This document shows positions 1 to 56,125 of a stretch of 64,000 nucleotides of DNA, piece by piece. The stretch's first letter is position 1. Each line of letters opens with the position of its first letter. A model generated the notes under the pieces. That model saw only the letters and a program-made list of their open reading frames with translations. It was not told where the DNA came from and did not search any database. The translations under genes and the position numbers were made by a program. Origin of the DNA: Cloeon dipterum (lineage: Eukaryota > Arthropoda > Insecta > Ephemeroptera > Baetidae); the NCBI RefSeq assembly GCF_949628265.1, contig NC_088786.1:40383681-40447680 (forward strand), written 5' to 3'.

Positions 1-344
1 TCTCAAATAATTGAAAGAGGTAAAGATAAATCATTCCCACAAAACTATGGTTCTTCACACAAAAAAATATAAAAGTATCCGGATACAGGGGTGTAGTTTT
101 GGGGGTAGATGAATCGGTTGAAGAGCATTGTGCTGGAGTATTTATATCTTTGCAGCAGGAAGTTGTTTTTGTTCACTCCCAGCATCATTTCAGCGCAAGG
201 GTACCGGAAGGCGGAAGGCCCAGTGTTGAAGAAAGAGTCGGGCAGAATTTGGCGGCTGCGACACCACATCTCGTGCGTCTGGTTGATCGAATCCGTGTCG
301 CCGGTCGGCACGGTTAAACTCGTTGATCCTGTTTTCAAATCGTT

Positions 345-735
345 TTAATTCCTCGAGACCGTCTTTGACGAAGTTTCTGAGCCCACAAATCGATTCCTGA
401 GGGTCGAATTAGGTAAATTGGAAATTTGACCAAACAAAAAAGTCCAGCGCTGCGTGCAAACTTTTTTTTCCCACCAAAACAATATGAATGCCAGAACTAT
501 ACGCATGCATCAGAGCTGGCTGGATGTAACAAGAAGTCATTCGTACAGGTGGTCTCTCTGCAAAAGTGCTCAAAACCAGCGCACCTCTCGCAAATACGTT
601 CATATTGTTTTGGCGGGAAAAAAAGGTTCGCACGTCTCGCTGCACTTTTTCGAGGGAAAAAACTTGCACTTTACCTAATTCAACCCTCAGGAAGCGATTG
701 GTGTGCTCAGAAACGTCGTCAAAGACGCTCTTTAA
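345..735. mobile_element. Palindromic TTAA MITE, copy 1 (intron 26 of gene A)
   Basis: The arms are GACCGTCTTTGACGAAG... and its reverse complement near 730, and both continue inward through CAATCGATTCCTGAGGGTC. TTAA is present at both borders (345-348, 732-735). The whole unit can fold back on itself. No ORF belongs to it. Confidence 0.8.
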
Positions 736-1739
736 ATGAAGAAATGGATTTTTTTACCGGTTATTTGACTGGTCAGTTTCATCTGCGCAATGCTCGAAGG
801 CTCGTACAATTTGAACCCGCGCTCACAACATATTTTGTACACTTCAATTGGATTCTAGAATATAGAAATGCTGGAAGTTTGACAAATATGATAAAAGAAT
901 AAACGTGTTTACAATCTTTCCACCCTTATCGACATTTCCGACGTAATACGTCCTGTTCAACATTGTTTTCAGGAATCCAAATTTGTCTTTTCAAAAATAT
1001 AAACGCAAGACTTTAATCAAGATTAATGAAAAATTACCAGATAATTGTGGAGAATCGTACAGCAAATCTCTGGCCGTTTGCTGTATCGAAAAAATTATTA
1101 TACATATTTGTACATAAATTTATAGATACATTTAATTCGCACGGAGTAGAATTTGACATCCAACAAAAGTTGCGCAACGGAACACACGGCGTCGGAGGCA
1201 AAAGCTGTATGGAATTATTTAAAGAATTTCTGAAAAACCAAAAATCTTAATATAGGATCTAACGAATGTTCCATTGTCAAAGTTTAATTTGATTATGTCG
1301 GAGACTATACTTGGCGCCTTTTCCTGGCCACATCTGTATGTCTCGTGGGCAGTCACGCACTCATCGTCATATTCTTTAAAATAAATACATAGGATTGATT
1401 TTTAAAAAGTATAAATGATTGTTACTTATATCTTTGCACTCGTCGTAAGCAACAAATCCTTGCTGCAGTTTTACAGGATCCTCTTGAGATACGAATTCTA
1501 TCTGGCGGAGCATTGCAATGCTAACCAATGCATTGTAGTCGAACTTTAATTATAAAAATGAAAGTGAGAATTAAAATTTAAACAGTGCTTCGGGGCAAAT
1601 CAGACTGAATTTATTAAGTTACTGAAAAATTCCCAGCCCTAGAAATGATTGAATACTTTACCAATCCGACTTCAACTCCAATGCATTTCAAAAAGCACTG
1701 TAAATAAAAGATTATGCATAAAGGTCAAATAAAAAAAGG

Positions 1740-2121
1740 TTAAAGACCGTTTTTGACGAAGCTTTAGAGCACTACGATCGTTTCTTGAGGGTCGAATTAG
1801 GTAAAGTGGATCAATTTTTCCAACCGAAAAGTGCAGCGCGACGTGCGAACTTTTTCCCGCCAAAACAAAATGAATGCGAGAAGTGCGCATGCGTGAGAGC
1901 TGGATGGACGTGACATAATTCGTACAGGGGGTCTCTCTGCAAATGCTCAAACTAGCTCTCACGCGTGCACATTACTTGCATTTAGGTGCATATTGTTTTG
2001 GCGGGAAAAAGGTTCGCACGTCGCGCTGCACTTTTTTAACGGAAAAAACATCCATTTTACCTAATTCGACCCTCAGGAATCGATTGGTGGGCTCAAAAAC
2101 TTCGTCAAAGACACTCTTTAA
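1740..2121. mobile_element. Palindromic TTAA MITE, copy 2 (intron 19 of gene A)
   Basis: TTAA flanks are at 1740-1743 and 2118-2121. The arms contain TTTTTCCCGCCAAAAC and TGCGCATGCGT, E2F-like and NRF-1-like words, with their complements in the other arm. Confidence 0.85.
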
Positions 2122-3416
2122 CAGTTATAGAATAACGAACCTTCATATTAATGGAGATGTTTGCCGTAAGAAATTGGCTCGCTTGCAAGAGAATGTCAAT
2201 TTGCTCTAGACGAGAAAATGAATTAATTTTCAACAACCACGCAATTAAAAGAGTTCGAACCAGGTGTAATATCCCAAGTCTCAGCGCATTCGGTCTGCAT
2301 GGCCCTTTGGATGGTGTTTTTCTTGCGCATCTCGCACAAAAAGTCTTTTTCCTCCGTGCAATTCGCGGTGACCAACAACACGGATGCGTTCCTAACTTCG
2401 AGATAAACGCAATGTAAACCTGTTTGAGGGTGTCCGGCCTTCCACTTGAGCTCAGCGTCCACAAATCCGCGGTCAAGAGAGCACCACCTGAAGTTGGAAT
2501 CGCATCCCAGATCCGTTCCAGAAATCCAGAAATCGCCTAAGGTCGCTGGAGAAAATTCTTGAAGCCACAAATTGTATTATTTAAAAATTCAGCAAATTAA
2601 ACTAAATAATTTAACACTTGTGACGATTTTTGAGAAGCAGCTTAATTTTCCTGCCGTCTCCATCGAGGCCAGGGTCAGACCGATTTTGCAGCAATTGTCT
2701 CGGGCAGTGGACCAGTTTGACTTGAATAACGGGAATTGAAGAGAGTTAAAAATTAATTTAAATTTACCGGGGTTTTTGTGTAGGTCAAAATGCTGCGACC
2801 GCACCCGTCGTACCAGTTTCCATACGAGAAAAAGTCTTCGAAGACTTGGTAAATTATTTGATATTGATTTTAAACCTCTTTTATACCATTCAGTTCAGTT
2901 CCAGTTGAGTCAAAAAGCGAGGCCTACATTGAATTCCATGTTTTCTCATTTTGACTGCAATTAAAATTAATATCTTTTTACGTCCCGAGTGCAGTTACTC
3001 GTGGGACAGGTCGCGATGCACAGGGGCGGTGGAGTGGTGGTTATTTTAGTTATTTCCCTCTGAAAAATTAAATTTCTGATTCAAATTGAAACCTATTATT
3101 TCTTGAAATTCACCTCGCAAGCAAAAATGAGGAGGTTAGAACAATTTCTATCCGTCAAGATGGATTTGCTGGTGTTGAAATTAAACCGGAAGTGCGTGCA
3201 GGTCTCGTTCCCGCCTTTGTTGTCGGGTTGTCCGCGCTCCCAGGTCAGGTCCTGGGCGAAGAGGGCGGGCCCAGCGGACGTGCACCACGACCAACGTATC
3301 AATGGCGAACCCTTTCGCGTCCCAGACGTCCAGTAGTTGAAATTCGCCTTCCAATTATCTAAAGAAATGATTAAGAAAGAGAATTCCTGGAAGAGAGTAA
3401 AAACTTTTAAAAGATA

Positions 3417-5258
3417 CCCGCACAGAAAAATATGTTCCAAAGTTAACCCTGGGCTATACCATCTTCACCAAAGATTAACCGCCAGGAATGACTTTTTTAT
3501 GTCCCAAAGTTAACTAATGTCACGCTTTTTCTTGTTCAAGGTTAACCTTTTTGGTTAATCAGAAAAAATATTCCTGGAATAACCCAGGAATATCCTTGGA
3601 GAAGAATTATTTTCTGCCTCTTGGATTAACCCTGGGTTATTCTTGGAACAATATTTTGGTTAACCTTTCGATTATTCTTTGAACAACTTTAAGCGTGACA
3701 TAAGTTATCCCTGGATTATTTTTTTAAGTTAACCCTAGATTGTTCCTAGAGAATAACCCTGGAATATTATTTATTTTATTTTTATTTTTTTGCTTTTATT
3801 TAGGATTGTCGATTTAAATAGCAAAAACTTTAATCTTTATTACTTAAAATATAGCATAATTTATTTTTATCCAAACAATTACATACATATTACGAAAAAT
3901 TATGGAAAAATTACAGTTTCCGCCGGGCTACACAACTCGCCAGTTCCTGCAAGACTCCCATAATACTTTTATGTTGGATTCTCATAAGAACTGGCGAGAT
4001 GTGACAATGAAGTCCGGCGGAAACTGAAATTTTTCCATGTACAAAATTTTCTAACACGCCGGTATCGTTTATCTTGAGGCCTAACTCAAAACTGAGGATC
4101 GCGGCAGCCGTTGGCAAATAAGCGTCCGACGCGTCCTTGTCCAGCCGATCCAGGCAATCCGTCCGAACCGCCGGCTGTCCGATTGTCCTTCACTATCACT
4201 TTTGGCGTCTAGCGATGTCCGATGTCCGTTAAAACCGTTAAAACACTTTGAACTTAAACTTTGAACGGCCGTTGACGACTCGCTTGCGCTTGACTCTTTC
4301 GTTAGACTAGGGAAGAGAGCGAAGCAGGAATTATGGAAGTGGAAGTCGCCTGCTTGTTCTTGCCTGTCTGTCCTGCTGCCCGTCGCCCCCTCCCCCGCTC
4401 CATAACACAGGCAGGCAGAAGGCATTCCATGCAAGCGCGTGCATGCTTGTGCAGCCGCCGCTACCGCGCGCAGAATAAAATCGTCCTTTTAACCCTTTTT
4501 TGTCCTTCGTCATGACCAGATCTGTATTTAGATTTGCCCGTTTGTCGTTATATTTAACTAGGAAAATTTATTTGGCTTTAGTGATAGTAAATAAGTTAAG
4601 CAAAGTTTCAACTTTTGACTCTGGGGCTTCATAAATTTTAGTTAAATAATCAAAAAATTGTTTGGTCGTAATATTTTAATTAAATACTACATCCAAAAAT
4701 TATAAATAAATATTTGCGAGAATATTTTTTGCGCGTACAAGTTTGATAAATCTATAAAAACGTGGAATGCGTGTATTTAATTTTTAATAATTAAGAACCG
4801 CTCGAAAAATCTGGGGAAGTAGTTAATTATTCTAGTGGGCATCTTGAAGAAATATTCCTGGAATATTCATTTGGTTAATTTTTTAGGTTAACCCTTGAAT
4901 GATCCAAAAGAATATTTCTGGAATATTCATAAGATTAACTTTTTAGGTTAACCCTTGAATGATCCAAAAGAATATTTCTGGAACATTTAATAAGATTAAT
5001 TTTTTGGGTTAACCCTGGAATGATCCAAAAGAATATTCCTGGAATATTTATGCATGGTTAATACAATTTTCACTGCCAGGAATATTCTAGGGATATTCCT
5101 GATGATTAATTTTTAGGGTGAACTTTAAATAATCTGTGGCTAACCTGGAATAATCGTGGAATAATCTTGGATTAATTTTTCGGATTAATCTTTTCGGATA
5201 AAAATCGAATAGCCCAAGATTATTCCGGATATTTTTGGAATATAATTTTCTGTGCGGG
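3417..5258. mobile_element. Non-autonomous TA-flanked DNA transposon in exon 12 of gene A
   Basis: Terminal inverted repeats of about 17 bp begin CCCGCACAGAAAA at both ends, and TA duplications flank it (3415-3416, 5259-5260). The 1842-bp interior has no transposase frame. It holds TTAACCCTGG-type motifs near both ends, about 3.5 tandem units of roughly 60 bp at about 4850-5070, an inner palindrome at about 3906-4040 and a GC-rich patch at 4090-4520. The TA target suggests a Tc1/mariner-type or similar mobiliser; the family is not proven. Confidence 0.8.
4850..5070 (+). repeat. Subterminal tandem repeat (about 60-bp unit) inside the TA-flanked element
   Basis: Each unit contains GAATATT(C/T)CTGGAA, a TTAAYTTTTT stretch, GGTTAACCC and GAATGATCCAAAA. 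Three full units and a partial one can be seen. Subterminal repeats of this sort are usual transposase-binding arrays. Confidence 0.75.
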
Positions 5259-5509
5259 TATGGTCAGGTTGGTCAGGCCAAACTGCTCGGCTGCGTTCTC
5301 AATGTTCAGAGGTTCCATTCCCAAAGCGCAGCATTGTTTGTAATTATTTAACCATGTCATCTGATAAATTAATTAATAAATTTTAAAGATTTGACATTTT
5401 CTTTCGTTTATACCGGTTTGTTTCCCAAGAGATACGTGTAATTACCGGTATTGATCCAAACACCGTATGAAGTTTTATCTAAAACATTAAATATTTCAAT
5501 TTTCTTGAG

Positions 5510-5715
5510 TTCTAATCGAATCCTGAGAATTGAAATAGGTGGGGGAAATAATTATTTCGAGTTTAAAATGTTCTGCGACGTGCGAGCAACGGCGCAAAGC
5601 AAAACGTGAGATTTGCTTCGCGCCTTACAAACCTGTTTTCGATCTAAATAACCTAAATTATTATATTCACCCCAGCAAATTCGACCCTCAGGAATCGATT
5701 GCAGGAACAAAATTG
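5510..5715. mobile_element. Degenerate relic of the TTAA MITE (intron 10 of gene A)
   Basis: It retains CGAATCCTGAG near 5517 and TCGACCCTCAGGAATCGATTG near 5687 with part of the GCGACGTGCGA core between. The outer ends are eroded. This is an older insertion than the other copies. Confidence 0.55.
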
Positions 5716-6349
5716 AACAAAAATTACTTATCAAGTTTCCAGCGGCGTCAAATAAGGAATCCTTCAGGATAAAGATCAATATTTAATCCGACTTAGATTA
5801 TAATTTAACTCACATTCTTGGTGCACAAATTCGGACAGTCAACGGTATACACACAGATGTACTGCAGAGAATCATTGCAATTTTTGTGCACCATTCCACT
5901 GCTCCCGCTCCCGCCGGAGTTGACGAAAGCGAGACAGCGTTCTTGGGTGGTAGGGGCGGTCGTGGTCGGCAGCCAGAATTTCGGAGATGAAATTAACTCG
6001 GAAGAAACGTTCTCGCCCGTCGAGCACCACGCGTACTGTTTTTCCAAATCGCAATTTAAGTCTTCGCTGGAGCCGCTTGTCCAGTAGGTGCTTGAAGCGT
6101 TCAAAGAGCTCAGGCAGTCTAGTGCCTCGAGGCTGGGAACGGACAAAAGCGTCATGTTCATCGCCTTGCACTGAAGTGCGGCTTCGTTTCTCGTAGCCTT
6201 GAGTTGTTCTTTTATTTAACTGTTTTTGCAGATGATTCAAGATTCACTCACAGTCACGTTTGATACGTAATAAAGGGTATTTTTGCTGCAGTTATTCCCG
6301 TTTTGCATGAATCCTTCCGCTGTATAAAAATAAATTTTTAATTTTTCGG

Positions 6350-6739
6350 TTAAACATCGTCTTTGACGAAGTTTTTGAGCACACCAATCGATTCTTGAGG
6401 GTCAAATTAGGTAAAGTTAATGTTTTTTCCGTTAAAAAAGTGCAGCGCGACGTGCGAACTTTTTTCCCGCCAAAACAATTTGAATGCGAGAAGTACGCAT
6501 GCGTCAGAGCAGGTTTGAGCACTTGCAGAGAGAGCGCCTGTACGAATGACTTCTTTTTCAGATCCAGCCAGCTCTCACGCAAGCGCACTTCTCACAAAAA
6601 GATTCATATTGTTTTGGCGGGAAAAAAGTTCGCACGTCGCGCTGCACTTCTTGGTCGGGAAAAAATATCAAATTTACCTAATTCGAACCTGGAGAATCGA
6701 TTGATGTGCTCAAAAACTTCGTCAAAGACGATCTTTTAA
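6350..6739. mobile_element. Palindromic TTAA MITE, copy 3 (intron 6 of gene A)
   Basis: TTAA flanks are at 6350-6353 and 6736-6739. The arms are nearly complete and carry GTGCAGCGCGACGTGCGAAC and TTTTCCCGCCAAAAC. Confidence 0.85.
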
Positions 6740-7778
6740 GAATAAATTAAAAAATTGCATACTTGAAGCCGGTTTTGGAGTAGGATTTTTCTGGAAATGG
6801 ATATTTTTTTAATATTTAAATCCGATGGTTTTTAATTTTATAACCTTTTGATACGAGTTATAAGCTGTACAGTTCAATTTGCATGGAATGGGCTGCAAAA
6901 AATTAATTAATTTAATCTTCCGTCCAAGTTGTGCACCAACCTTGGTTGTTGTTGTGGTTGTAGTTGTTGTGGTACTGATTGAAGTTGTTGTTGCTACTCC
7001 TGTTGTGGTCGAGGTTCTTACTGAGGTTGTTGAACTCGTTGATTGTTCGAGTATTGAGACAGTATTTTTTATTGAAGTGAGCTCTGTCACAACAACGGTA
7101 TTTTTTGTTGGAGGATCCAATACTGAGACAGTTATTGCTGTTGATGAAGTTATTAGAGAAGTTTCTGAAGTTAATATGGCGGAGGTTGAAGACGTATCCG
7201 TTGTCCCTGTTGAGGTGGTTGTCTCTGTTACTGGCTCGGTTGTCATGTAGACACTGGTTTCAGTGGTTTCCCCTTCGGAAGTGGTGACCTCTGTCTCTGG
7301 AAAAGTGGCCGCGTCAGAGAGCAAGGAGGTTATTGGAATCGTTGGCGTCTCCTTTATTATAATTGTCGGTTTTAATTGAAGAAAGTATAGAAAAATCTTG
7401 GAAATTAATACTTGGCTTTCCTTGCTGTTCATTGGAGACGAAGATGTTTTGCTTTTTGTCGCGTTTTTCTTCGGCATACATCTTTTCAAACCGCAACATT
7501 TGACGATGATTCTTCTCCGCTGCACTTTTCGCACGATAATTTTGATGGGAACTATAGAAGCCTAAGTTTTTTCAATAAATTATAAAAATTTCGAAAAATT
7601 ACCAGAATTTAAACCGATATTGCGGTTCATTTTAACCACGCCGATTTTGTTAGGCTATAGGAAATTACTCATGCGTGAAATAATAAATTTTTCTTTAAAT
7701 TAGACTCACTGATCGATGTTTGGCTTCTTCGGTCGATAAAACCAACGTCAAAAAGAGACTCCAGCAGTAGATATTCAT

Positions 7779-9219: not shown

Positions 9220-12200
9220 ATGGCTTCCATCCGTGCAATCATCCTCTTGGCACTTATGATTGTTGTGATCAGCCTCTCGCAAGCAAAACAAGTGAGTGAC
9301 GTTTTTTTCTCAATAATATGTGTATTTGAACACTGTAAAATTAATTAGGAAAAGAAGAAGATCATTAAGGCAGTGCGGATCAACGGAAATTCTGGTAAAT
9401 TTAATTGATTATTAAAATTAAAACCCTAAAACTGACACGCAGTGGCCAAAAATGTTAATTTGGTTTAATTTAGTTATACATATATGTTTTAATAGATTAA
9501 ATGATACTGTTTAAGGTCCTATTAAAATATATCTGCGGAAGAATGTTCGAAGGAAAAATATAATCAAGTGTTGCGGCTTCAAGAAATGCATGGGCAAAGC
9601 TAAAAACGGGACCAAACCCAAAAACATTTCTAATTATTCCCCATCTACGCTCTCTGCGAATGATGACGATGTGCTGGCGACCACGATTCTGGAAAAAGCG
9701 GCCATTGCGACAGGAAGTTCTACTGACGCAAACGAGGAAAATGCGGCAGAAAATAGTGAAACGAGTGAGTAGAAATGAAAAATTAATAACATTTTATTAA
9801 AATATGGGAAACAGCAGCTCAAGATTATCAAGATACGAGCGGGAATCCTCAAGAAAACGCAGTCAGCAGCACTTTTCAAGGGACAAATAATGCGCCTACT
9901 GACGTCACAACATTAATGAGTGACGTCACCAATCAAGGGAACATTCCAGACGGTGCTGAAACGACAGCGGCGGCAGGAGCTGATTTATCCTCAACTGGTG
10001 GCGCCAATGCCGACCCGTTAACGGCAGGATCTGCGGGAAATTCTTTGTCCGTGTCTTCATCCTCAGGAGGAATAGCAAATACGCCAGGACCAACACCGCC
10101 AATCCCGTCAAGCACAACAAAATTATCTTTGAATTTACCATCAGGAATAACTTCAACTCTATTGCCCTCATCCCTTAACAATTTGCCAGCTTCAATAACT
10201 TTACCAAGTGTGCCGCCAGTTGGAACAACAACTTTAGCATTAAACCCTGCTCCAACGTCTTCAACCATCACGACAACAACAATCACAACAACCACAGTAA
10301 ATTGGGCGCTTTTATTATAATTAATTTGAGTAAAATAAAATGAAAAATAAAAATTTAGCCTATCCCATGTCGATTGCCGTGTAAAGATTTTGACGACTTC
10401 TTATTGGTAATGCAAATTTGATTTAAATATCTCTGATTGTGTTCAATTTTCTATATAGGCTACTCCAACATCAAAACCATCTCCTAGTACATCAAACCTC
10501 TATCATTTTAAACAAAAATATAATTTGCATTTTAGCGGATGGCTCAATTCTAAAATCTGCAAAGTGTGGCAACAGGCAATATTACGTTTCAACAGCTAAA
10601 GTAGAGATTTCTAGATAGGGGCGACCATTTTTATTTCATTTTTTTAATCTCAAAGGTGACGAGAAATGAAGCAGGACTGCGGTGCAAAGCGATGGACATG
10701 TCCCTCCTGACCGTTCCTTCTGTTGAGGAACTGACCTGTCTCAGCAGTTTGCAAGGTTTCGACTCATTTTTGTTTCCTGAATTTTAAATTTTCGATTTAA
10801 ATTCAAGCCGGGACATTTTGGACGAGTGGTTCGAAGGGAAATCCAAGCTGTGACGAGAGTTTCGGGTGGTGTTCAACGGGGTTCAATGTCTCGGAAATGC
10901 TTCTTTCTGCGCCCAAATATTTCCTTCCGACCACCAAAGCTCCTTCCGTCGACGAAAGCTGTCTGGCAGTCGTAAATTCCGCCGCCGCAGCGAGCGGGAT
11001 GACGCTGAGAAAATGTGACGAAGCGCTGCCCTTCATCTGCCAGTTCAACGTCGACTGTCCAAAATTATGCGATAAAGATGTATGTTCGAACTTAAGAAAA
11101 CGACTCAATTTATCCTTTTTAAAAGGTTTCCTTATTTGACCCGGCTGGAAATTTAATAAGTAGATAGAGAGACATCATACACTCTGGCTTTTTTATGAAT
11201 TTTCTTATCTTTAGATAAAACTTCCTATGGAATTTGGATCAATATCGGCAACTATACTTATCTCCTGGGAAACAAGCCGGTATTTTTAAAAATTCACCCT
11301 TAAATTCTATATTTTTAAATAATTTTTGGACAGATGTCTTGGCTGTCCAACTACCTCCGTTGCTGCGCTTTAGGAATGGAGACGCTCAACATTGAAAACC
11401 TGGCCGAGCAAAAAGGCCTGAAAACATTTTCTCTCGCCTTTAATACAAGTTTGATGCATTATGGTGTAATTTGCCCTTACGAAATTTTCATTTCTAGCAA
11501 ACTGGAAAGCGAATTACAATTACTGGACTTCCGGCACGTGGAAAGGCGCTCCTCCGAATCAGTTTTCGTGGTGCAAACCCAGCGGTCCCTCCGTTCTCTC
11601 CGGTGATTTGGTTTGGGAAAAGGGACAGCCGGACAACGCGGGCAGCAACGAGAGCTGCGTCCACTTCCGGTTCGTATTGAATTCAACAGGCACCATCATG
11701 ACCGATAGGAATTGCGCCAATAAATACATATTTGCATGCAAGGTGGATTAATTATCAAGTCAATTTTTGTAACTCTGATTAAATATTTCTTCAGGGTCCA
11801 ATCAGTACAACTGCAAAGCCGTGCGTTGCTTCGTGTCCGACCAAGAATTGCGACCGAAATGTCTGCATCATTCGTAATTCTGTTGGATTTTTATTAAAAT
11901 TATTAAAATATTTAAAAGCTCGCGCTCTTCAACGGTTATGAACTTAAAGGTATTTCTATAACGTATTAAAGATTTTAGAATCATTATATAATCAGTAATA
12001 AAAATTCTAGACTATTTCAAATACGGCAACTGGTATGATGGATGTGGCAGGAACATTCTTATATTTACAACAAGCCAGGTATATAATTTTCAAATTTGTT
12101 GCACCCAAAGTCACAGCTATTATAAAAACGAGTTCTATTAATTTAAAGTCAAACTGGGCAAATGCATGGGATTGGTGCTGCAAGGTCGGCTTGACCCTGA

Positions 12201-14649
12201 TGTCCATGGAGTCGGCGGGAAAAGCAAGTTGCTATTCAAAAATCGTGTCCAGTATGATAAAAATATTCTTAATTGTGAGTCACGTATAGTTTTTAAATCA
12301 AGGGTTTCGAACTCCGACATATGGAGACTTCTGGCTCTCAGGCACAGACAAGGATTGTCCTTCCACCTTCCGATGGTGCTCGCTAAGCAAGAATTTCATC
12401 GACCCTGAGCTGAAATGGAAGGCTGGACACCCGAAAGACGGTTTGGACTGCGTTTACCTCGAGGTTCGAAACGGATCCGTGCTGCTCGCCTCCGCCAACT
12501 GCACCGAGAAGAAAGATTTTCTCTGCGAAGTGAGAAAGAACAACACGTTTCAAAAGGCCATGCAGGCCGAATGTGCGGAAATTTGGGATATTTCTACTGG
12601 TTTTATGATTTAATTGAATTGAATCCTATAAAATTATCTGATTTTAAATCAGAGGAAATCGATATGCTGTTGAATGTGAGCGCGTTTCTCTCTCCAACTG
12701 CGAAAATCTCGCTTAATTTGAAGGTTTTTGAGTAATTCATCTCAATACTTTTTAATTTATTATAACATTTATAAATTTAGTGCTTCTTGAAATGTGTCGG
12801 AGTTGAGGTTGGAATGGTATGATATTATTGTCCAGGAAATGCTGATGAATCTTTTAAACTGCACTTATTTTTATTAAAGTTTGACCTGGGTGCTTTGAAC
12901 GCGATAGCGACGTTGCAGCAGATAGAAATCGTTTCTCAGGAAGAACCGGTGAAAATGGAAAAGGCATTCGTCGCTTACGACACCTGCAGCGGAAAACGTT
13001 GTTTCTATGATTAAATTGTTCTCCTTATGACTTATAAAATTCCAGAGTTTGACGACGAGTGCGTGACCGCTTACGAAACTTTCAAATGCGGCCAGGAGCA
13101 AGCCCCTGACATTGTCTCGCAAATCGTTTCGAACAATTTCGACAACGGAACGATCGTTAGGACTACAGATAATTTTAATATAATTTATTCTAAATATTTC
13201 CTTTGTAGCTGTCTCCTCCGACTCCGTGCCTTCCATATCGCCATTCGTGTTGGCTCACTAATGAATTTCCCTGCGTCAAAAATGTATAATGTTCATTTAG
13301 CCTGAAAATGTTTTTTTTCTGTTTCAAAAATGCATTTAAATGTGGCGTTTCCAGAAACTAGATGCTTATTTTCCTGAAAAAATTAGTTAAATCTTTTTAC
13401 TGCAAAATTGTTGTTTATATTATAGTCATTCGATCAGCTCTTTATTTAAAGAAGGCTGGTTTCAGTAAATTGAATGTGTTACCGCAATTATTAAGAATAA
13501 AATTTCATGGTTATTCGATTTAGCAAACGGCTATCGATGCACTCCTCACTTTGGGAAAAGGTAATCAATACCAGCAGGGTTTGAAAATTAGCATTTTTTT
13601 CAAATTACTATATGTTAGATGATTTTGGAAAAGTGGTTTATGCGTCAGACAATATTAAGAGGTACTACGTCAGAGACTTTGATCATTCGGCAAATATAGT
13701 AAATTATTGATTTGAAATACTCTCGAAAATTTACTATTTTAATTTTAGAATCCGATAGATGCCTACAAACATTGCTGCGGAATTGGATGGAAAATCTTTG
13801 AGCCCATGACCCTTGAAGAAAGCCAATATGTCGGTAATCAATATGGTAAAGAAAATAAAATTCTAAAATGTTACCCAATTTTTTATATTAGCGGAATCTT
13901 GAATTCTTTTTCCATTATTACGAATTTTTTCATTCTTTAAAGAATATATTTCAATTAAAAGCAAATTTTCTAAATTCCATGAAATACAACTATGGATTTG
14001 TATTAAATCTCTTAGAACTACTCTCGTCCTGAACATGAACTTAATCTCTGATTCTTAAAGACCGACTTTGACGAAGTTCCTATATAAGCTCACCAAAAGC
14101 TCGATTCTTGATGCATGCGTACAGGCGATCTCTCTGCAAGTGGGAACTGCACTTTTTGACCGGAAAAAATGATCCACTTTAACAAATTCGTCCCTCAAGA
14201 ATCGATTGGCGGTGAGCTATTAGCTATTAGGATCTTCGTCAAAGACGGTCTTCAAATTAAGTGGTATTGATCTCTGCGTTTAAAAAAATCTTGAAAAGAA
14301 CAAATTTTTGAAAAATGTATTAACCCCAAAAATTGCATATACGCTTTTCGAACAAATTGATGCATTTTCAGGTTCTAACTCCGGGGCGGTGCTCGTTGGC
14401 GACACCGAGTCCATCAACAAGACGCACTTCATGTGGTGTCAAAGCCGCAGAATCGTGCCAGCAGAAAATGTAATGCCGCAACAAGATTTGTTCTGCGAAT
14501 CGTCTTATCTGATCACGTACACGCTCTACGGCTATATTGAAAAATCATACATTCCTGGTGGCGACATCATCAAGTACAAGCTCAACTACGGCACGGGCCT
14601 CAACCAACCAATGTCTAATCTCCACAGCTTTGCCTGCCAGGAACCCTAG
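9220..14649 (+). CDS. Gene B: secreted mucin - 3 CTLD - PBP/GOBP (odorant-binding-like) - CTLD chimeric protein, intact
   Basis: Exons: 9220-9291, 9349-9394, 9516-9764, 9815-10296, 10359-10406, 10459-10486, 10536-10600, 10656-10755, 10808-11079, 11126-11159, 11215-11279, 11334-11448 (or -11463), 11498-11742, 11795-11860, 11919-11949, 12011-12078, 12149-12251, 12303-12599, 12653-12723, 12781-12816, 12880-12997, 13046-13155, 13209-13283, 13524-13560, 13619-13698, 13749-13845, 14372-14649. All are GT-AG and the total is divisible by three (about 1095 aa). Residues 1-23 form a signal peptide ending ISLSQA. A Lys-rich KCCGFKKCMGK motif follows, then a Ser/Thr/Pro segment (about 120-283). CTLD1 is at about 318-440, CTLD2 about 465-610 (keeps GQPDN), CTLD3 about 640-775, the OBP-like domain about 780-905 and CTLD4 about 955-1095. 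Secretion is inferred from the signal peptide and no transmembrane segment was noticed. Biochemical function is unknown; a secreted glycosylated binding protein is the inference. It is divergent from gene A and tandem with gene C. Confidence 0.88.
9815..10296 (+). other. Mucin-like Ser/Thr/Pro segment of gene B (exon 4)
   Basis: A single 482-bp exon encodes about 160 residues rich in Ser, Thr, Pro, Ala and Gly. It ends in a Thr run (TTTTITTTT) and would suit dense O-glycosylation. The equivalents are 18193-18683 (C), 38554-39044 (D), 46367-46854 (E) and 53453-53955 (F). All keep a non-degenerate core such as LPSGITSTL and SLNNLPASITLP, which is more conserved than a plain mucin spacer would need. 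Gene A's counterpart (within 6941-7551) is Thr/Ser-rich but not alignable in detail. Length differs by multiples of three among copies, showing in-frame change. Confidence 0.8.
12303..13155 (+). other. PBP/GOBP-like (odorant-binding protein) domain coding segment within gene B
   Basis: The domain starts in the last part of exon 18, which also encodes the second half of CTLD3, and runs through exons 19-22. The six cysteines are AEC (exon 18), the CFLKC pair (exon 20), DTC (exon 21), and DEC and FKC (exon 22). Their spacing is C1-x32-C2-x3-C3-x42-C4-x8-C5-x8-C6. The C2-x3-C3 and C5-x8-C6 spacings are the diagnostic insect OBP pattern, and the wording around them (LKCFLKCVGVEVGM, DDECVTAYETFKC) is typical of the family. 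Exon 23 (13209-13283) follows with three more cysteines in a Pro-rich stretch that I cannot assign. The same segment is present and open in all six genes: A about 1264-2290, C 31070-31658, D 35680-36260, E 43524-44115, F 50626-51210. Confidence 0.85.
14055..14260. mobile_element. Palindromic TTAA MITE, internally deleted copy 4 (intron 26 of gene B)
   Basis: Both outer arms are present (GACTTTGACGAAG ... CTTCGTCAAAGACGGTC), but most of the centre is missing, leaving about 200 bp. TTAA lies on the left and TTAA or TCAA on the right. Confidence 0.75.
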
Positions 14650-17606: not shown

Positions 17607-18723
17607 ATGGCTTCCATCTGTGCAATCATCCTCTTGGCATTTATGATTATTGCAATCAGCCTGTTGCAAGCTGAACAAGTGAGTGAAATTCCGATTAATT
17701 TATTTATGTATTTGAACTATAATATTCATTAGGAAAAGAAAAAGATCATTAAGGCAGTGCGGATCACCGGCAATGCTGGTAAATTTCATTTTGTATATTG
17801 GGTTTGGAATTTAAATTAGTTAAAACCCTAAAACTGGCACAGTGGCTTGATATGTTTGGTTTAATTAAATGATTTTGTTTAAGGTTCTATTAAAATATAT
17901 CTGACGAAGAAAGTTCGAAGGCAAAATATATAATCAAGTGTTGCGGCTTCAAGAAATGCATGGGCAAAGCCAAAAACGGGACGACTGGTTACAAAAAGAA
18001 TGAGACTACGTCCATCAGCAATAAAATTTCCCCATCAACGCATCGCGGGATCGTTGACGATATGCTGGCGACCACGATTCCGGGAAATGCGGCCATTGCG
18101 ACAGGAAGTTCGGCCAATGCTGACGGCGAAAATGCAGCAACGAGTAATTGAAACCGAATATTTTATTAAAATGATTAACGCGCGGGAAACAGCTCAAGAA
18201 TTTCAAGATTCGAGCGGGAAATCTGAAGAAAACGCAGCCGGCAGCACTTTTGAAGGGACAAATAATGCGCAAACTGACGTCACAACATTAATGAGTGACG
18301 TCACCAATCAAGGAAATATTCCAGGCGGTGTTGAAACGTCGACGGCGGCAGTTGCTGATTCATCCTCAACTGGTGGCAACAACAATGTCGACCCAACAGC
18401 AGGATCCGCGGGCAATTCTTTGCCAATGTCTCAATCCTCAGGAGGAATAGCAAATAAGCCAGGACCAACACCAGCAATTCCATCCAGCACAACAAAATTA
18501 TCTTTAAATTTGCCTTCAGGAATAACTTCAACTCTATTGCCCTCATCCCTTAACAATCTGCCAGCTTCAATAACCTTGCCAAGTGTGCCGCCGGGTGGAA
18601 CAACTACTTTGGCATTAAATCCTGCTCCAACGTCTTCAACCATCACGACAACAACCACAACCTCAACAACTACAACAACACCAGTATATAAAGGCTTTTA
18701 ATTACACTTATGAATTTGAGAAT

Positions 18724-19166
18724 TGTCAGGGTTTTACCTGACGATATTACGATCGCATTAATAATTGTTCCGCACCGATATGTAATTGACGTTAACTTTC
18801 GGGCACCCACAAGGGAGAGCGGAGGGAGAGACTCAGGTATCAATAAAGGCAACGCAAGAACCTCCCCCTCACGAGCACACGACCCGCTCGCACCAACGCA
18901 TTCTCTCTCCTGACGGCACACGAGCAAGAGGGTAACACTCTCGCTCCCCCGCTCGTCCCTCTGGGTAGCCACGCTGTGTACTGTCGCCGCTAACTACAAT
19001 AAACTGGTATGGTATAGTAACTGGGCATTTTCCCTTCTTGTCCACCCTGCACCCTGTAAAGTCTACTTTGGCCACAGAAGATAAGACTCTGACCTCGTGA
19101 TAGGGAGAAGGCGCGCCGGCAGGGCCGACTGCTCCCATTCGGCGGCCCTGCCCCGCGTCGCTGACA
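18724..19166 (+). repeat. 5' LTR
   Basis: It is bounded by TGTCAG...CTGACA and almost identical to 28390-28834. It is more GC-rich than its surroundings and has an AATAAA-like word in the middle (CAATAAA near 18840). Confidence 0.9.
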
Positions 19167-19451
19167 TGTGGAGGTACAGCGGCGAGATGACCCGTAAGTT
19201 ATAATGTCAGCCCTCACGAGCGAAGAGTTTTTTTTCCTGTTGCAAAAGTGCCCTCCCAAACCCAGCCCTCCAAATTTTTTGGACCCGAAACCCCCCCAAC
19301 AAGCGCGTAATTTCCTCCTAAAGGACATGTAAAATCGAACTTACGTACGCGTCATGCAAATTTTGTAAATATTGTATAATTTAAAATATGTCAGGTGCAC
19401 ATTAGGCGATCTAATTTTTTCTTTGCACGCTGAGACATACGTAAATTTAAC

Positions 19452-28834: not shown

Positions 28835-31800
28835 AGAATAATTGTAAATTAAAATTTTAGCCTATCCCATGTCAATTGCCTTGCAAAGATTTTGACGAAT
28901 TCTTATTGGTAAAGCAAAATTTAATCGAATTATCTGATTTAGTTCCATTTTCTGTTCAGGCTAATCCTACATCAAAACCATCTCCGAGTAATATACCTAA
29001 ATTTATTATTTTAACAAAAATAAGATTGAATTTCTAGCGGACGGCTCAATTAAAAAATCTACAAAGTGCGGCAACAAGCAATATTACGTTTCAACGGCTA
29101 AAGTAGACATTTCTTGATACGGCTGGAACCATTTATTTAATTTTTTAATCAAAGGTGACGAGAAATGAAGCAGGACTTCGGTGCAAAGCGATGGACATGT
29201 CCCTTTTGACCGTTCCTTCTGTCGAGGAATTGACATGTCTCAGCAGTTTGCAAGGTTTCGGATCATTTTTAATCGCAGAAAAAGATGTTTTGATTTAAAA
29301 TTCAAGTCGCGACATTTTGGACGAGTGGCTCGAAGGGAAATCCAAGCTGTGACGAGAGTTTCGGGTGGTGTTCAACGGGGTTTAAAGTGTCAGACACACT
29401 TCTTTCCGCGCCCAAATATTTCCTTCCAACCACCGCAGCCCCTTCCGTCAACGAAAACTGTCTCGCGGTCGTCAACTCCGCCGCCGCAGCCAGCGGGATG
29501 ACGCTGAGAAAATGTGACGAAGCGCTGCCCTTCATCTGCCAGTTCAACGTCGACTGCCCGAAATTATGCGATAAAGATGTATGTTCGTTCTTTAGAAAAC
29601 GATTCAATTTATCCTTTTTAAAAGGTTTCCTTATTTGACCCGGCTGGAAATTTAATAAGTAAATTAAAAGTCAGAAACGTGTGAGGCTTTCTTTATTTTT
29701 AATTTCAACATTTTTAGATAAAACCTCTTACGGAATTTGGATCGAGATCGGCAACTACACTTATCTCCTGGGAAACAAGCCGGTTCTTATTTAAATTTAA
29801 ACCTAAAATGTCTGTCTCAAATAAAATTTGGACAGATGTCCTGGCTGTCCAACTACCTCCGTTGCTGCGCCTTGGGAATGGAGACGCTCAACATTGACAA
29901 CTTGGCCGAGCAAAAAGGCCTGAATAAATTTTCTCTCGACTTCAATACAAGTCTGATGCGAAATGGTGTAATTTTCCCTTACGAAATTTGCATTTCTAGC
30001 AAACTGGAAAGCGAATTACAATTACTGGACTTCCGGCACGTGGAAAGGCGCTCCTCCGAAACAGTTTTCGTGGTGCAAACCCAGCGGGCCGTCCGTTCTC
30101 GCCGGCGATTTGGTTTGGGAAAAGGGACAGCCGGACAACGCTGGCAGCAACGAGAGCTGCGTCCACTTCCGGTTCGTATTGAATTCAACAGGCACCATCA
30201 TGACCGATAGAAACTGCGCAAATAAATACATATTCGCTTGCAAGGTGGATTAACTATTTAGTTAATTTTTGTAACTCTAATTGAATATGCATATCAGGGT
30301 CCAATCAGTATAACCGCAAAGCCGTGCGTTGCTTCGTGTCCAACAAAGAATTGTGCACGAAATGTTTGTTTCTTTGTTATTTTATGTTGAATTTTTATTA
30401 AAATTATCAAAATATGTATTATAGGTGAAGCTCTTCAGTGATACTAATGAGCTTTTAGGTATTTTAGAACTAGTTTTTATTAGCATAAATAATACAAATT
30501 CCAGACTATTACCAATACGGCAACTGGTACGATGGATGTGGCAGGAACATTCTTACTTTTACAACAAACACCGTAAATTACTTTTAATTTTTGTCTCCAA
30601 ATTACTTCAAAAATCAAAAGATTTTGTAATTTATTATCATTTAACTTGAAGTCGAACTGGACAAATGCTTGGGATTGGTGCTGCAAGGTCGGCTTGACCC
30701 TGATGTCCATGGAGTCGGCGGGAAAAACGAGTTGCTATTCAAAAATCGTGTCCAGTACGATAAAAGAGTCAATTTAAACACTTGTATTTTTATGTTTTAA
30801 TATTAAAGAGTTTCAAACTCCAACATTTGGAGACTTCTGGCTCTCCGGGACAGACCAGGGTTGTCCTTCCACCTTTCGATGGTGCTCGTTAAGCAAGAAT
30901 TTCATTGAACCTGAGCTCAAATGGAAGGATGGACACCCGGTGGACGGTTTAAATTGTGTTTATCTCGAGGTCAGAAACGGATCCGTTCTGCTCGCCTCCG
31001 CCAACTGCACCGAGAAGAAAGATTTTCTCTGCGAAGTGAGAAAGAACAACACGTTTCAAAAGGCCATGCAGACCGAATGTGCGGAAATTTGGGATATTTC
31101 TACTGGTTTGTTTATTTTAATTGAAACAAATCCGATAAGTTAATCTTTTTATAAATAAGATGAAATCGATATGCTGTTGAATGTGAGCGCGTTTCTCTCT
31201 CCAACTGCGAAAATCTCGCTCAATTTGAAGGTTTAAGAATATTTTTGAAACATTCCAATCTTTTTAACCATAATTAAAATCAGTGCTTCTTGAAATGTGT
31301 CGGAGTTGAAGTTGGAATGGTTTGATATTATTGTCCGGAAAATGCTGACGAATCTTTTAAACCGCACTTATATTTATTAAAGTTTGACTTGGGGGCTTTG
31401 AACGCGATTGCAACGTTGCAGCAGATAGAAATCGTTTCTCAGGAAGAACCGGTGAAAATGGAAAAAGCATTCGTCGCCTACGACACCTGCAGCGGAAAAC
31501 GTTGTTTCTATGATTAAATTGTTCTCCTTATGACTTATAAAATTCCAGAGTTTGACGACGAGTGCGTGACCGCTTACGAAACCTTCAAATGCGGCCAGGA
31601 GCAAGCCCCTGATATTGTCTCGAAAATCGTTTCAAACAATTTCGACAACGGAACAATCGTTAGGACTACAGATAATTTTAAAATAATTTATTCCTATTAA
31701 AAACTTGTAGCTGTCTCCTCCGACTCCGTGCCTTCCGTATCGCCACTCGTGTTGGCTCACCAATGGATTTCCCTGCGTCAAAAATGTGTGATCAATTTTA

Positions 31801-32793
31801 GCCTGAAAATCAATTTTATCTTTTTTATATTTTCATCATTAATTTTTTTCAAAATAATTCTCATAAAACAGCATCTGATTTTAATTTTAAATTTTGAAAT
31901 TTCAAATTATTTTTCGATTTAGCAAACGGCTATTGATGCACTGCTCACTTTGGGAAAAGGTATTCAATATACCAGGGTTTAAAAATTAGCGTTTATTCAA
32001 ATTACTATTTTTAGATGATTTTGGAACTGTGGTGAAAGCGTCAGACAATATTAAGAGGTACTACGTCAGAAACTCTGATTCTTCAGGAAATCTAGTACGA
32101 ATTTTAGGACTAAAATATTCTCCATAACTGATTATTTTAATTTTAGAGCCCTATCGATGCGTACAAATTTTGCTGCGGAATTGGATGGAATCTCATTGAG
32201 CCAATGCACATTTTAGAAATTCAATATTTTGACATATTTTTTGGTATGAACAGAAGTGCATATATTTAAAAAATTAATTTTGTTGAAACCATCTGGATTT
32301 TTAAAAATTACGAATCTTAGATTCTTAAATGAATTAAACTGTGTGGTGTGTGCGTCTGGCAATTATTTCTGTTTCAAGAAACAAGAAAATAGATCGTGTT
32401 GCTAAATTAATTAAAGAGTATGCTCTCTATCAACAAACTAAATTCCCAAAGACGCATAATATGATGTCAGCTATTTTTCGCATTCTAATTAGAACAAATT
32501 TATGCATTTTTGCAGGCATTTCTTTAACACAAACACTCACTGGCGACACTGTGTCCATCAACCAGACGCACTTCATGTGGTGTCAAAGCCGCAGAATCGT
32601 GCCAGTAGACATTGTCATGCCGAGACAAGAATTATTCTGCGATCCATCCTATTTCGTCATGGACACGAGCACGGGCTATATTGAAAAATCATACATTCCT
32701 AGTGGCGACACCATCAAGTTCAAGCTCAACTACGGCACGGGCCTCAACCAACCAGCGTCTCTGCTCTACAGCTTTGTCTGCCAGGAACCCTAG

Positions 32794-34630
32794 CCGACGC
32801 ATATTTCTTTTTGTTTCGATTTTGCACATTTTTCAACTGTGTGGGCTGTGTGTTTACTTATTGTTGTTGGCTCTGCTCTTCAGCAATTTTATTATTTAGT
32901 CTTTTGCGATTTTTTTTGTCATCAGTTATGCACATTTCCAATAATATTCATAATAATGTCAGCTGCGTTCCTCAGGCGCTATTTGCAGTCGACCTGGAAC
33001 TGAAATGGCTTATGGATTTTTCTAACGGGGATCAAATAAAAGAGTGTGTAAAAAAATCTGCATTTCAGCCTCGTTTTATTCGTCACTGTTCATATAAAAT
33101 TAATTTTGGGAAATATGTATAGGATTTCAGACGTTTTTTGCGCATTATATGCTATTAATACAAGCTCATTGTGCTTCCCGTCGGGGCGGATGCATTTTTG
33201 AAGATAAAAAGCAGCAGCAAAAATTAATAGGTTTGTGCTGGAAAAATCGCAAAAAGTTGCTTTGGTATCGATCTCAGGGTGGGTTACCCTGAAAAAGGTC
33301 ATCAGGGTAGGTCAGGGGGTAGCGGTTGTTCGGACCTTTCATTTGAGACCCTGTGACTTCAAGTCCATCAACTCATCAAATTATTAGAAAATTAAAACCG
33401 TCCGATGCGAGCACTGATTGTGAGAAACGAGGCCGCCGGCATTCTTTAAAGCTGTATGGCAACTTAGGGGTGGAGAGCAAACACCCCTAAACCCTTCAGA
33501 TACTCAGAACTGATTGAAACGAGTCCAACGGTTGGTAGTTTTTGCAATTCTGATGTTTTGAAACCGAGATTTGGAGTTTGCAAAATACGAAAAAGTCGAA
33601 ATTTTCGTGATTTTCGTGTTTTTGCATTTTTTGCCAAGTCCAAAACTCGGGTTCTAACTCTCAGAATTGCAAAAACTAATTACCGTTGGATTTATCTCAA
33701 CCTCTTTTAAGAAGTTAAAGGGTTTAGGGGGTGCATACACCCTTCCCCTGTCATCCCCATTGCTACAGTTTTGATAAAAAAACGACCACCGTCCCTGGCG
33801 ACGCTCAATGTTGCATATTTAAATCTGAATGGCCACTTAGGGGTGAGAAGAAATCACCCCTAAACTTTTCAGTTACTCAGAAAAGATTGAGATGAGTCCA
33901 ATGCTTGGTAGTTTTTGAATTTCTGATGCTTGGAACCTGAGATATTAAGTTGCAAAATTAAAAAAAAACGCGAAATAAAAGCCAATTTTTCACTTTTTGA
34001 GATTTATATTGGGTTTTAACTATCAGGATTGCAAAAACTACCCCCCGTTAGACTCTTCCCAACCTTTTCTAATGCACAGAAAGGTTTTTGACGCGATAAT
34101 TTATTGTATTTTAATAATTTAGAGCGTGCAAAATCCAGACAAATGTAATTAATCTCTGCTCTCAATGTTGGTTTTTTTTAAAAAAAAAAAAAAAGTCCGT
34201 GATTTAATCGGTCTTTTAGCCAGACAAAAAGAAACTTGATTGTCTTACTCAGGCTAAGAATTGTAGAAAGCTCCTAGGAACGAAATTGTAGCGAAATTGT
34301 TATTCTTGTTGTGAGTGGAAAAGAAAGAAATATTAGCAGGCGAAACTTCTTGATAATTCTCTTTATTATTTTTTATTCGCATCCAGAACAAGATGATGGA
34401 TATATTTTCTTACGATACAATTATTTAGACACATCAGATAATTGCTTAAATTAACTCACGAACTCTATAGGAGTTTAGTGTTAAGAAAAAAGAATTCTAT
34501 TTAGCTGTTTAATGAACAAAACACACGCAGCAACCGCTCGAAATCAGCAAACAAAACCAATTTTGTAAAACCCGCATAAAACAAAAAATTCTTCTTCTAG
34601 TTTAGGGACTCTCGCAGATAAAGCTTTGAG
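32794..34630. other. Convergent intergenic region between genes C and D
   Basis: It holds the 3' ends of both genes (AATAAA at 33035-33040 for C). At 33120-34100 lies the repeat block shared with 15010-16000. At 34100-34610 lies the D-side flank, which recurs after gene E at 41990-42480. The former ending of gene D's last exon is at 34614-34630. No other gene was seen. Confidence 0.6.
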
Positions 34631-37600
34631 CTACATTAGCGATGGAACTGACGGAGAAAGTCGATATGTTGTTGCGACTGTATACTGAATGATATCCTTA
34701 TTTGTAACGAATAATAGCCTAAGATTCCCATAGCCCGGCTGCACAAACTTGGTGTAGAAGTTCGGAAAGCACGATACGGACTCCGCAAGAATATCCGAAG
34801 GCACAACCTGGCGGCTTCGGCACCAAACGTCGTGAGTATCGTTCAAGTACTCGGTGTCGCCCACGATTGCATTTGCTCCACCTCCTGCAAAAAAAATACA
34901 GTCTCAATTTTATGATTTTAAATAGTTTGTATTCTCGAAGACATTGGTATTCTTATTATTCTACAATAAATTTTTGTCTGCAGCGAAATTAAAAGGCAGC
35001 ATTTGCATACCGAGCAAATTGTAAATCTGAGTATCGTCAACACTGGACACGGGCTCGTACAGTTTCCATCCAATTGCGCAGCAATATTTGTATGCATCGA
35101 TAGGATTCTACAGTAAACACCGCAAATTTTCAAGAAAATTAAAAAGTATTCCATTTTTTACATAATTTTCTGTAATATTTTTATTCCTGAGGTAAAACAT
35201 CTTGTTGGCAGTCACGGTCGATCCTCCCACAGTTCCGGAAGGATCTGAAAAAGGATTATTGTCAAGATAGAGATATCTTAAATTTCGACGCTCTTTACCT
35301 TTATAGCTCAAAACTAAATCGGCGATCGCTTGCTAATTTAAAAAATTCGGTTATTCTATTGCAGAGCAAAAAATTCAAATAATAATTCACTTGATGCAAA
35401 TTAATACTTGACTACGATTTTGAAATTTTATTTGTATAAGATTTCAAATGAAAAAAAACATGCATGACTAAAGATATATAAGAGAAATTCTTCTTTAAGA
35501 AGAATGAAATTAGTGTAAACAAACACACTGCTGTTTAAATTTTAAAACATACATCTTTGACGCAGGGAATTTCATTAGTTAGCCAACACGATCGGCGAAC
35601 CGGAACGCACGGAATCGGAGGAGATAGCTACAAGTTTTTACTTCAAACAAATTATGTTAAAAAAATCTGAATATCTTACAACTGTTCCGTTGTCGAAATT
35701 ATTTGTAACGATTTGCGAGACAAGGTCAGGCGCTTGCTCCTGGCCGCATTTGAAAGTTTCGTAAGCGGTCACGCATTCGTCGTCAAACTCTGGAATTTTA
35801 ACCTGATGTCTAAAGAATAAAAAATTAAAAAGATAAGCAACGTTTTCCGCTGCAGGTGTCGTAAGCGACGAAGGCAGATTCCATTTTCATCGGTTCTTCC
35901 TGAGTGAAGATTTCTATTTGTTGCAACGTTGCAATCGCGCTCAAGGCACCCAGGTCAAACTTAAAGAAAAATTCGAGTATTTTGAGTTAATATTCAGCAT
36001 TTAGACCACATTGAGTACCATTCCAACTTCAACTCCGACACATTTTAAGAAGCACTATAATTTATAACGTGTTAAACGATTTCTAAGATAAATGATAAGT
36101 AGACCTTCAAATTCAGCGAGATGTTCGCAGTTGGAGAGAGAAACGCGCTCACATTCAACAGCATATCGATTTCCTCTAATTTAAAATGATATAAAATTAT
36201 CAGATTTATTTAAATTAATTTTAAAACCAATCGAAATATCCCAAATTTCCGCGCATTCGGTCTGCATGGCCCTTTGGAAGGTCGCCTTCTTTCTCACTTC
36301 GCAGAGAAAATCTTTCTTCTCGGCGCAGTTGGCGGAGGCGAGCAGCACGGATCCGTTTCTAACTTCGAGGTAAACGCAATCCAAACCGTCCACCGGGTGT
36401 CCAGCCTTCCATTTGAGCTCAGGGTTGATGAAATTCTTGCTCAGCGAGCACCATCGGAAGGTGGAAGGACAGCCCTTGTCCGTCCCAGAGAGCCAGAAGT
36501 CTCCATATGTTGGAGTTTGAAACTCTAGAATTTTAAAATAAGTAGGAAAAGTGTTTGAATTGATCCATGATATCATACTGGATACGATTCTGGAATAACA
36601 ACTCGCTTTTCCCGCCGACTCCATGGACATCAGGGTCATCCCGACCATGCAGCACAAATCCCACGCATCTGCCCAGCTCGACTTTAAGATAATTAACAAT
36701 ATTTTTACAAGGCGGCTGTGGTTTTAGTTGCAAATATATCGATGTAATAGTTTGTAAAGTAATTTACCTGGTTTCTTGTAAATGTTAGAAGATTCCTGCC
36801 ACACCCGTCGTACCATTTGCCGTACGAATAAAAGTCTAGATATAATTTTTTTTATTGAAATGATTAAAATATAAATATTTTCACGTTAGAATACCAAGTA
36901 GCTCTTTTTTATAATTGAAGAGCGTTTCCTACATGTATTGAAATTAATTTAAATAAATTTAATTCAAAAAAGATTAATACATTTCGCTCGCATTTCTCAG
37001 TCGGACACGAAGCAACGCACGGCTTTGGAGTGGTACTTCTGGGTCCCTGAATTATCATATTCAGCAATATTTTAAAAATTCAATCCCATAAATCACCTTG
37101 CAAGCGAATATGTATTTATTGGCGCAGTTCCTATCGGTCATGATGGTGCCTGTGGAATTCAAAACGAACCGGAAGTGGACGCAGCTCTCGTTGCTGCCCG
37201 CGTTGTCCGGCTGTCCCTTTTCCCAAACTAAATCGCCGGCGAGAACGGAGGGACCGCTGGGTTTGCACCACGAAAACTGGTTCGGAGGAGAACCTTTCCA
37301 AGTTCCAGAAGTCCAGTAGTTGTAATTTGCTTTCCAGTTTGCTACAAATCAAAAATTTTGTCAAGAAAAATTGCACCATATTGCATCAGACTTGTGTTAA
37401 AGTTGAGAGAAAACATTTTAAGTGCGATCTGTTCTGCCAAATTGTCAATGCTGAGTGTCTCCATTCCCAAAGCGCAGCAACGGAGGTAGTTGGACAGCCA
37501 GGACATCTGTCCAAATATGATTTAATGCAGAAATTTGGGGTGAATTTGAATAAAAACTGGTTTGTTCCCCAGGAGATAAGTATAGTTGCCAATCTCGATC

Positions 37601-56093: not shown

Positions 56094-56124
<31 letters not shown>

Positions 56125-56125
56125 C
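55650..56125 (+). mobile_element. Poly(A)-terminated retroposon fragment
   Basis: A relatively GC-rich stretch, unlike its neighbours, ends in CGGACAAGGAT followed by a run of nearly 30 A at about 56096-56124. That is the shape of a LINE or SINE 3' end. An open stretch (about 55800-56120) runs into the A tail, so it could be the tail of a LINE frame. The left limit and the family are uncertain. Confidence 0.5.

Follow-up and report, generated by a model that had tools for sequence, protein, structure and literature searches.

The mayfly Cloeon dipterum carries a large baetid family of genes in which, we are almost certain, each locus encodes one chain that joins a mucin-like segment, three C-type lectin-like domains (CTLD1, CTLD2, and CTLD3), a classic six-cysteine odorant-binding protein (OBP) domain, and a terminal lectin-like domain (CTLD4), and which derives from an old fusion and has been duplicated as a unit. 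We describe it from a window of 64,000 nucleotides (contig NC_088786.1; C1:40383681-40447680), where six tandem copies, A (-), B (+), C (+), D (-), E (-), and F (-), share the order CTLD1, CTLD2, CTLD3, OBP, CTLD4, and where gene B is taken as the reference. The fusion unites two insect domain families that rank among the best known, and does so at about 148 loci in one genome. Gene copies were located by blast of pieces of gene B against the window, and gene models were made by spliced alignment, stop-free for all copies, with gene-finder exons used as hints only. Gene B runs from an ATG at 9220 to a TAG at 14649 with no stop inside and with every intron GT-AG. An earlier interpretation of this DNA from its letters alone (the sequence-only reading) had proposed a single continuous model of B, from signal peptide through mucin segment, three CTLDs, and six-cysteine OBP to a fourth CTLD, and the stop-free splice reproduces it; the fusion had been placed in B, E, and F, and all three do have this order, although the window holds six copies and not three. 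The 27 exons then given are found in B, E, and F, but the length of 1095 aa fits E, and B has 1094 aa.

Both domain families are detected by Pfam in the same chain, well above cut-off. PBP_GOBP (PF01395) is found in B at 9.9e-10 (39 bits versus a cut-off of 22), in E at 3.8e-9 (37.1 bits), and in F at 1.4e-9 (38.5 bits), and Lectin_C (PF00059) in B at 6e-12 (46.7 bits versus 22.6, three stretches), in E at 2.1e-8 (35.3 bits), and in F at 1.1e-11 (45.8 bits). For B, the scan and the first protein search used a 1078-aa model lacking the 48-nt exon 10359-10406, which was recognized by comparison with the database protein P0002. The OBP cysteines of B are residues 786, 819, 823, 866, 875, and 884, a spacing of 32-3-42-8-8; the classic OBP pattern has six cysteines, with X3 between C2 and C3 and X8 between C5 and C6, and B conforms to it, as do 74 of 102 relatives. 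In the other 28, part of which were inspected, the pattern is not intact. The domain also matches LUSH in sequence (E 2.4e-8), and the predicted fold of the OBP part of two relatives is all-helical and matches solved OBPs. Chance helical similarity was considered as the source of the OBP match and is rejected by the Pfam match, the LUSH match, the cysteine spacing, and the fold. The sequence-only reading had called for both a Pfam scan and a structure prediction, and because PBP_GOBP scores above cut-off and an OBP fold is predicted in relatives, neither a missing match nor a missing fold speaks against it at the level of sequence. Classic insect OBPs (PF01395; LUSH, AgamOBP4, LmigOBP1) share the cysteine spacing, all-helical fold, and sequence match, but are secreted single-domain proteins of about 120-200 aa, whereas here a module of about 110 residues lies between lectin domains of a 1094-aa chain; B thus contains an OBP domain without being an OBP as usually understood. 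Double-domain OBPs and D7 salivary proteins also use the OBP fold as a module of a longer secreted protein, but they repeat that fold, and here it is joined to an unrelated domain family.

The fusion point lies inside exon 18 of B, with 12529 the last base of CTLD3 and 12572 the first base of the OBP Cys1 codon. Exon 20 (12781-12816), like its counterpart in the other copies, is a 36-nt microexon carrying Cys2 and Cys3, Cys4 is in exon 21, and Cys5 and Cys6 are in exon 22; introns 18 to 22 measure 53, 57, 63, 48, and 53 bp, and their counterparts in E and F 45-63 bp.

To count such loci, we searched the whole 190-Mb C. dipterum assembly with exon queries all derived from the family, and pseudogenes may be included in the counts. 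A peptide of the exon-18 type gave at least 97 matches at E 1.2e-27 or better among the best 150 of 406 candidates, none with stops, followed by a gap to the next match at 8.9e-18; one of the 97 reaches only residue 88, and another is partial (31-99). The exon carrying Cys5 and Cys6 gave 96 matches at 3e-7 or better, with all 143 candidates scored; three weaker matches belong to other subfamilies and were counted there. A Cys5-Cys6 exon lies 518-1707 bp downstream on the same strand (median 668.5) for 96 of the 97 exon-18 matches, and in the reverse comparison every one of the 96 Cys5-Cys6 exons is paired with an exon-18 match. A second Cys5-Cys6 query returned at least 130 matches with E up to 0.01 (among the best 150 of 173 candidates), 77 of them already in the 96 and 53 new. 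For 51 of the new exons, a CTLD exon in the same orientation lies within 2.5 kb upstream, eight loci among the new ones having been checked with home-made profiles; one of the remaining two is likewise fused, and the other, at C5:27974831, is a fragment that follows a complete fused gene. Overall, 148 of 149 OBP exons have a CTLD exon close upstream, 147 of them securely; at C1:17069296, included in the 148, the upstream region holds only the last CTLD of the preceding gene and a short CTLD remnant. A search of the genome with the Pfam OBP profile gave, from four candidates, a single match at C3:3625495 (3625495-3625665), a low yield because the OBP exons are short; a LUSH fragment gave no match to the genome and is uninformative. 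In the subfamily at C5:9322637-9360898, an intron lies between the CTLD and helix 1 of the OBP, so the one-exon junction is not universal, and this arrangement is possibly closer to the ancestral junction.

The family extends to a second genus. Three protein searches, the final one word-based and restricted to the best 8000 candidates, gave at least 102 family proteins, of which C. dipterum contributes 73 and Neocloeon triangulifer 29. Both genera belong to Baetidae (for Cloeon, PMC8703493), and the matches listed in these searches include none from outside that family. The same fusion order is present in Neocloeon, as a search in other insects proposed by the sequence-only reading would have it, and because this order recurs in the six tandem copies, in 148 of 149 loci genome-wide, and in Neocloeon, the fusion is more than chance. 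Among 20 relatives scanned with Pfam, PBP_GOBP exceeds its cut-off in 19 and Lectin_C in 15, the best Lectin_C stretch usually lying just ahead of the OBP. Lectin-OBP proteins with both domains precomputed are already present in databases; in GenBank, P0002 and P0003 are examples that carry PF00059 and PF01395 under the name "Hypothetical predicted protein [Cloeon dipterum]". Pairwise distances of CTLD3 and OBP are correlated across 69 proteins (r = 0.927; none of 2000 permutations above 0.111), with two deep family branches contributing to r and the nearest neighbor agreeing in only 33 of 69. On a joint tree, which has several long branches and is unsure in its details, Cloeon and Neocloeon proteins interleave with 7 changes, at least 3 of them forced by starred branches, and therefore several lineages are older than the Cloeon/Neocloeon split; 29 B-type Cloeon proteins form a single branch (Shimodaira-Hasegawa-like approximate likelihood ratio test, SH-aLRT, 99). 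The chimeric family is genuine, and its size and age go well beyond what the window reveals.

The OBP part is under purifying selection, and CTLD4 is the fast part of the protein. In ten pairs of copies B to F, omega is 0.05-0.26 for OBP, 0.11-0.19 for CTLD1, 0.05-0.14 for CTLD2, 0.06-0.21 for CTLD3, and 0.51-0.80 for CTLD4, and in six pairs without C it is 0.40-0.62 for the mucin segment; in pairs with gene A, synonymous divergence (dS) approaches or exceeds saturation. Mean pairwise identity among Cloeon proteins covering each domain (20-25 of 25) is 0.66 for CTLD2, 0.62 for CTLD3, 0.60 for OBP, and 0.33 for CTLD4. The exons of the linker and CTLD4 (exons 24-27 of B, 13524-14649, and those of E and F) have between-copy identities of 0.53-0.78, below most other exons and mostly below the introns (0.77-0.81); exons 1, 2, and 15 are also variable. 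Neither positive selection nor gene conversion is supported for CTLD4: omega stays below 1, and the 3' introns (identity 0.73-0.76) differ little from the slightly less divergent 5' introns (0.77-0.82; chance floor for this alignment 0.63).

The lectin domains are detected less evenly. Just one Lectin_C stretch (CTLD3) passes on its own in each of E and F; scanned as pieces, CTLD1 of F scores 21.8 bits, just below the 22.6 cut-off, and CTLD2 of F has no Pfam match. Models predicted for two relatives also match solved C-type lectins, and that of P0045 is confident over its C-terminal part (block means of the predicted local distance difference test, pLDDT, of 81-98 from residue 261). As in multi-CTLD proteins of the mannose-receptor type (PF00059), the CTLDs are in tandem; in a predicted model, a relative's CTLD3 aligns to carbohydrate-recognition domain 4 (CRD4) of the mannose receptor, and the alignment with two-CTLD chains of mannose receptors spans residues 1-436 at a root-mean-square deviation of about 17. 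Mannose receptors combine fibronectin type 2 (FN2) and ricin-type domains with a membrane anchor; the fusion chain differs in its mucin segment and OBP module, and no membrane anchor was noted in it by eye. Toward the N terminus of B, the mucin-like segment is 31% Ser plus Thr and 10% Pro (residues 74-300), long and Ser/Thr/Pro-rich as in mucins. An RxxIxxCCGxxxC stub with three cysteines appears in the majority consensus (alignment A6) of Cloeon and Neocloeon members.

We propose that the fusion protein is secreted and would act as a mucus-like surface glycoprotein; the sequence-only reading had suggested that it could bind a ligand and a glycan together, for example in saliva, silk, gut, or immunity. 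Its mucin segment would be O-glycosylated and form an extended, hydrated chain, and the odd number of cysteines in the CCGxxxC stub may cross-link chains; CTLD2, with its conserved QPD site, would hold glycans, a small hydrophobic ligand would sit in the conserved OBP module, and the rapidly evolving CTLD4 would give recognition specific to each copy, the site of action being presumably the nymphal surfaces that face water. Taken whole, chain identity together with this mode of action, the proposal has about an even prospect of being right; that it coats gill, cuticle, and gut in particular, where it would trap or display microbes and hydrophobic molecules, is a tentative suggestion to which we give slightly less than that.

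Two other functions would use the same chain differently. The first is chemosensory: an OBP of the sensilla on gills and antennae, tethered by its mucin and lectin domains in sensillar or gill-surface fluid, would carry waterborne odorants to receptors. In C. dipterum, 191 OBPs were reported, 167 of them complete, with 82 of the 167 expressed in gills and three located in gill cell clusters positive for horseradish peroxidase (HRP) (PMC7250882), and with 148 fused loci it is likely that many published OBPs are fusions. The link from published OBPs to fusion loci is nonetheless one that we infer, no sensillar OBP known to us resembles a 1094-aa chain bearing four CTLDs, and amplification, linkage to lectins, and a rapidly changing C-terminal domain would be more in keeping with surface defense; we consider the chemosensory role unlikely. 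The second function is that of a multi-lectin immune protein, in which the OBP fold would be a disulfide-braced spacer that binds nothing. The three to four CTLDs, the 16 N-linked sequons of B, and the fast, divergent CTLD4 would fit such a protein, but the OBP comes close to CTLD2 and CTLD3 in conservation and retains six cysteines and the classic fold, although conservation alone is no proof of a ligand; we judge this role to be improbable to a similar degree.

Several observations weigh against the fusion chain or against the function proposed for it. Among the 28 database proteins in which the six-cysteine pattern is not intact, P0042, P0046, P0049, and P0050 run on past exon 19 into the following intron and stop there, and P0041 does so past exon 20; all five begin at a Met inside CTLD1 and look like faulty models, although they may be real isoforms. 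P0024 (RefSeq; nearest to gene A, 90.6% over 565 residues) joins CTLD3 to OBP but skips the Cys2-Cys3 microexon in frame, and the truncated and microexon-skipping models may be either annotation slips or real isoforms in which the OBP is spoiled. The OBP queries were family-derived and missed the OBP-like exon at C3:3625495, which has no CTLD in the 9.9 kb scanned (C3:3621000-3630900); it is probably an ordinary single-domain OBP, so that lectin-free OBPs exist too. For the fourth CTLD of the sequence-only reading, relatives have a predicted CTLD-like shape there, but it is degenerate, and Pfam gives no match for the piece from gene D. The calcium/sugar site of C-type lectins is EPN or QPD plus WND, and of the 63 pattern matches for CTLD2 among the 102 proteins, 52 combine QPD with TD or SD, the N of WND being replaced; with this substitution in the sequence, calcium-dependent sugar binding by CTLD2 is unsure. 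Finally, that adjacent lectin and OBP genes were wrongly joined is practically refuted: the join is drawn from gene models and some database models stop after exon 19, but OBP Cys1 shares an exon with the end of CTLD3, the next introns are about 50 bp, 96 of the 97 exon-18 matches are followed by the OBP exon in the same orientation, and both parts are joined in database models from two genera.

The scale of the fusion changes how mayfly OBP counts may be read, and many mayfly genes counted as OBPs may be something else. The C. dipterum OBPs were found by BLASTP and Pfam-based HMMER searches of annotated proteins, plus TBLASTN (PMC7250882), and such a search should catch PF01395 in fusions, GenBank proteins such as P0002 and P0003 included if these were part of the annotated set. 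Although it concerns the same species, the main text of PMC7250882 has no occurrence of lectin or mucin, and its sections on OBPs describe no fusion. Ten OBPs of 135-252 aa are reported in the heptageniid Parafronurus youi, by a method different from that used for the 191 of C. dipterum (PMC13205551), and four in a damselfly (PMC5381652). Lectin, odorant, OBP, and mucin are absent from the main texts of the mayfly papers PMC11597413, PMC11634025, and PMC7644658. The statement of the sequence-only reading that no described protein joins an OBP to a CTLD agrees with the open-access literature, where we found no paper on a lectin-OBP fusion (most subscription journals, and PMC8418000, which holds both Pfam names, lie outside this scope). 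The published count of 191 OBPs and the proposal of gill chemosensing probably rest largely on the fusion family. A stronger version could equally well prove right or wrong: the 191 OBPs would be mostly about 150 baetid mucin-lectin-OBP chimeras, the gill-chemosensory claim would thus rest largely on a surface glycoprotein family, and the OBP fold would be a recruited ligand-holding module beside a terminal lectin domain diversifying copy by copy. Gills as chemosensory organs become directly testable by asking which gill OBPs are fusions, and the fusion is a natural test of whether an OBP pocket works inside a glycan-binding mucus protein.

Table 1. Gene copies in the window and parts of gene B (window coordinates)
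Feature	Position	Strand	Remarks
Gene B	9220..14649	+	Complete lectin-OBP fusion gene, 27 exons, 1094 aa; spliced model and Pfam
Signal peptide of B	9220..9285	+	Residues 1-22, read by eye
Basic CCGxxxC stub of B	9560..9589	+	Residues 55-64; conserved
Ser/Thr-rich mucin-like segment of B	9617..10370	+	Residues 74-286, introns inside
CTLD1 of B	10562..11046	+	Residues 317-442
CTLD2 of B	11253..11742	+	Residues 478-606; QPD motif, with a D retained from WND
CTLD3 of B	12052..12529	+	Residues 653-771; best Lectin_C stretch
Exon 18 of B	12303..12599	+	Second half of CTLD3 and OBP start with Cys1; fusion point
OBP domain of B	12557..13116	+	Residues 781-893, exons 18-22; PBP_GOBP match
CTLD4 of B	13749..14646	+	Residues 971-1094; degenerate, fast evolving; from relatives' predicted shape and omega
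Gene A	48..7778	-	Divergent copy; 26 exons, 1032 aa (earlier model 24 exons, 1056 aa); mucin exons uncertain
Gene C, 5' part	17607..18683 (other model ends 18698)	+	Upstream of LTR element; exon 2-3 junction uncertain
Gene C, 3' part	28861..32790	+	CTLD1-CTLD2-CTLD3-OBP-CTLD4; spliced model
Gene D	34605..39640	-	28 exons, 1087 aa; last exons less sure
Gene E	42488..47466	-	27 exons, 1095 aa
Gene F	49459..54556	-	27 exons, 1117 aa

Gene C was modeled as two parts (Table 1), being interrupted in its fourth intron by a long terminal repeat (LTR) retrotransposon of about 10 kb (18724-28834). The LTR pieces of this element (300 and 83 nt) match at 100% identity, the length between them differing by 2 nt, and the insertion is therefore young; the element has one open reading frame of 650 aa, with a weak zinc-knuckle match below cut-off. 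Beyond gene F, at about 56000-64000 on the minus strand (approximate exon positions), lie exons of a major facilitator superfamily (MFS) transporter (MFS_1, 1e-24), which we take to resemble a sugar-phosphate exchanger.
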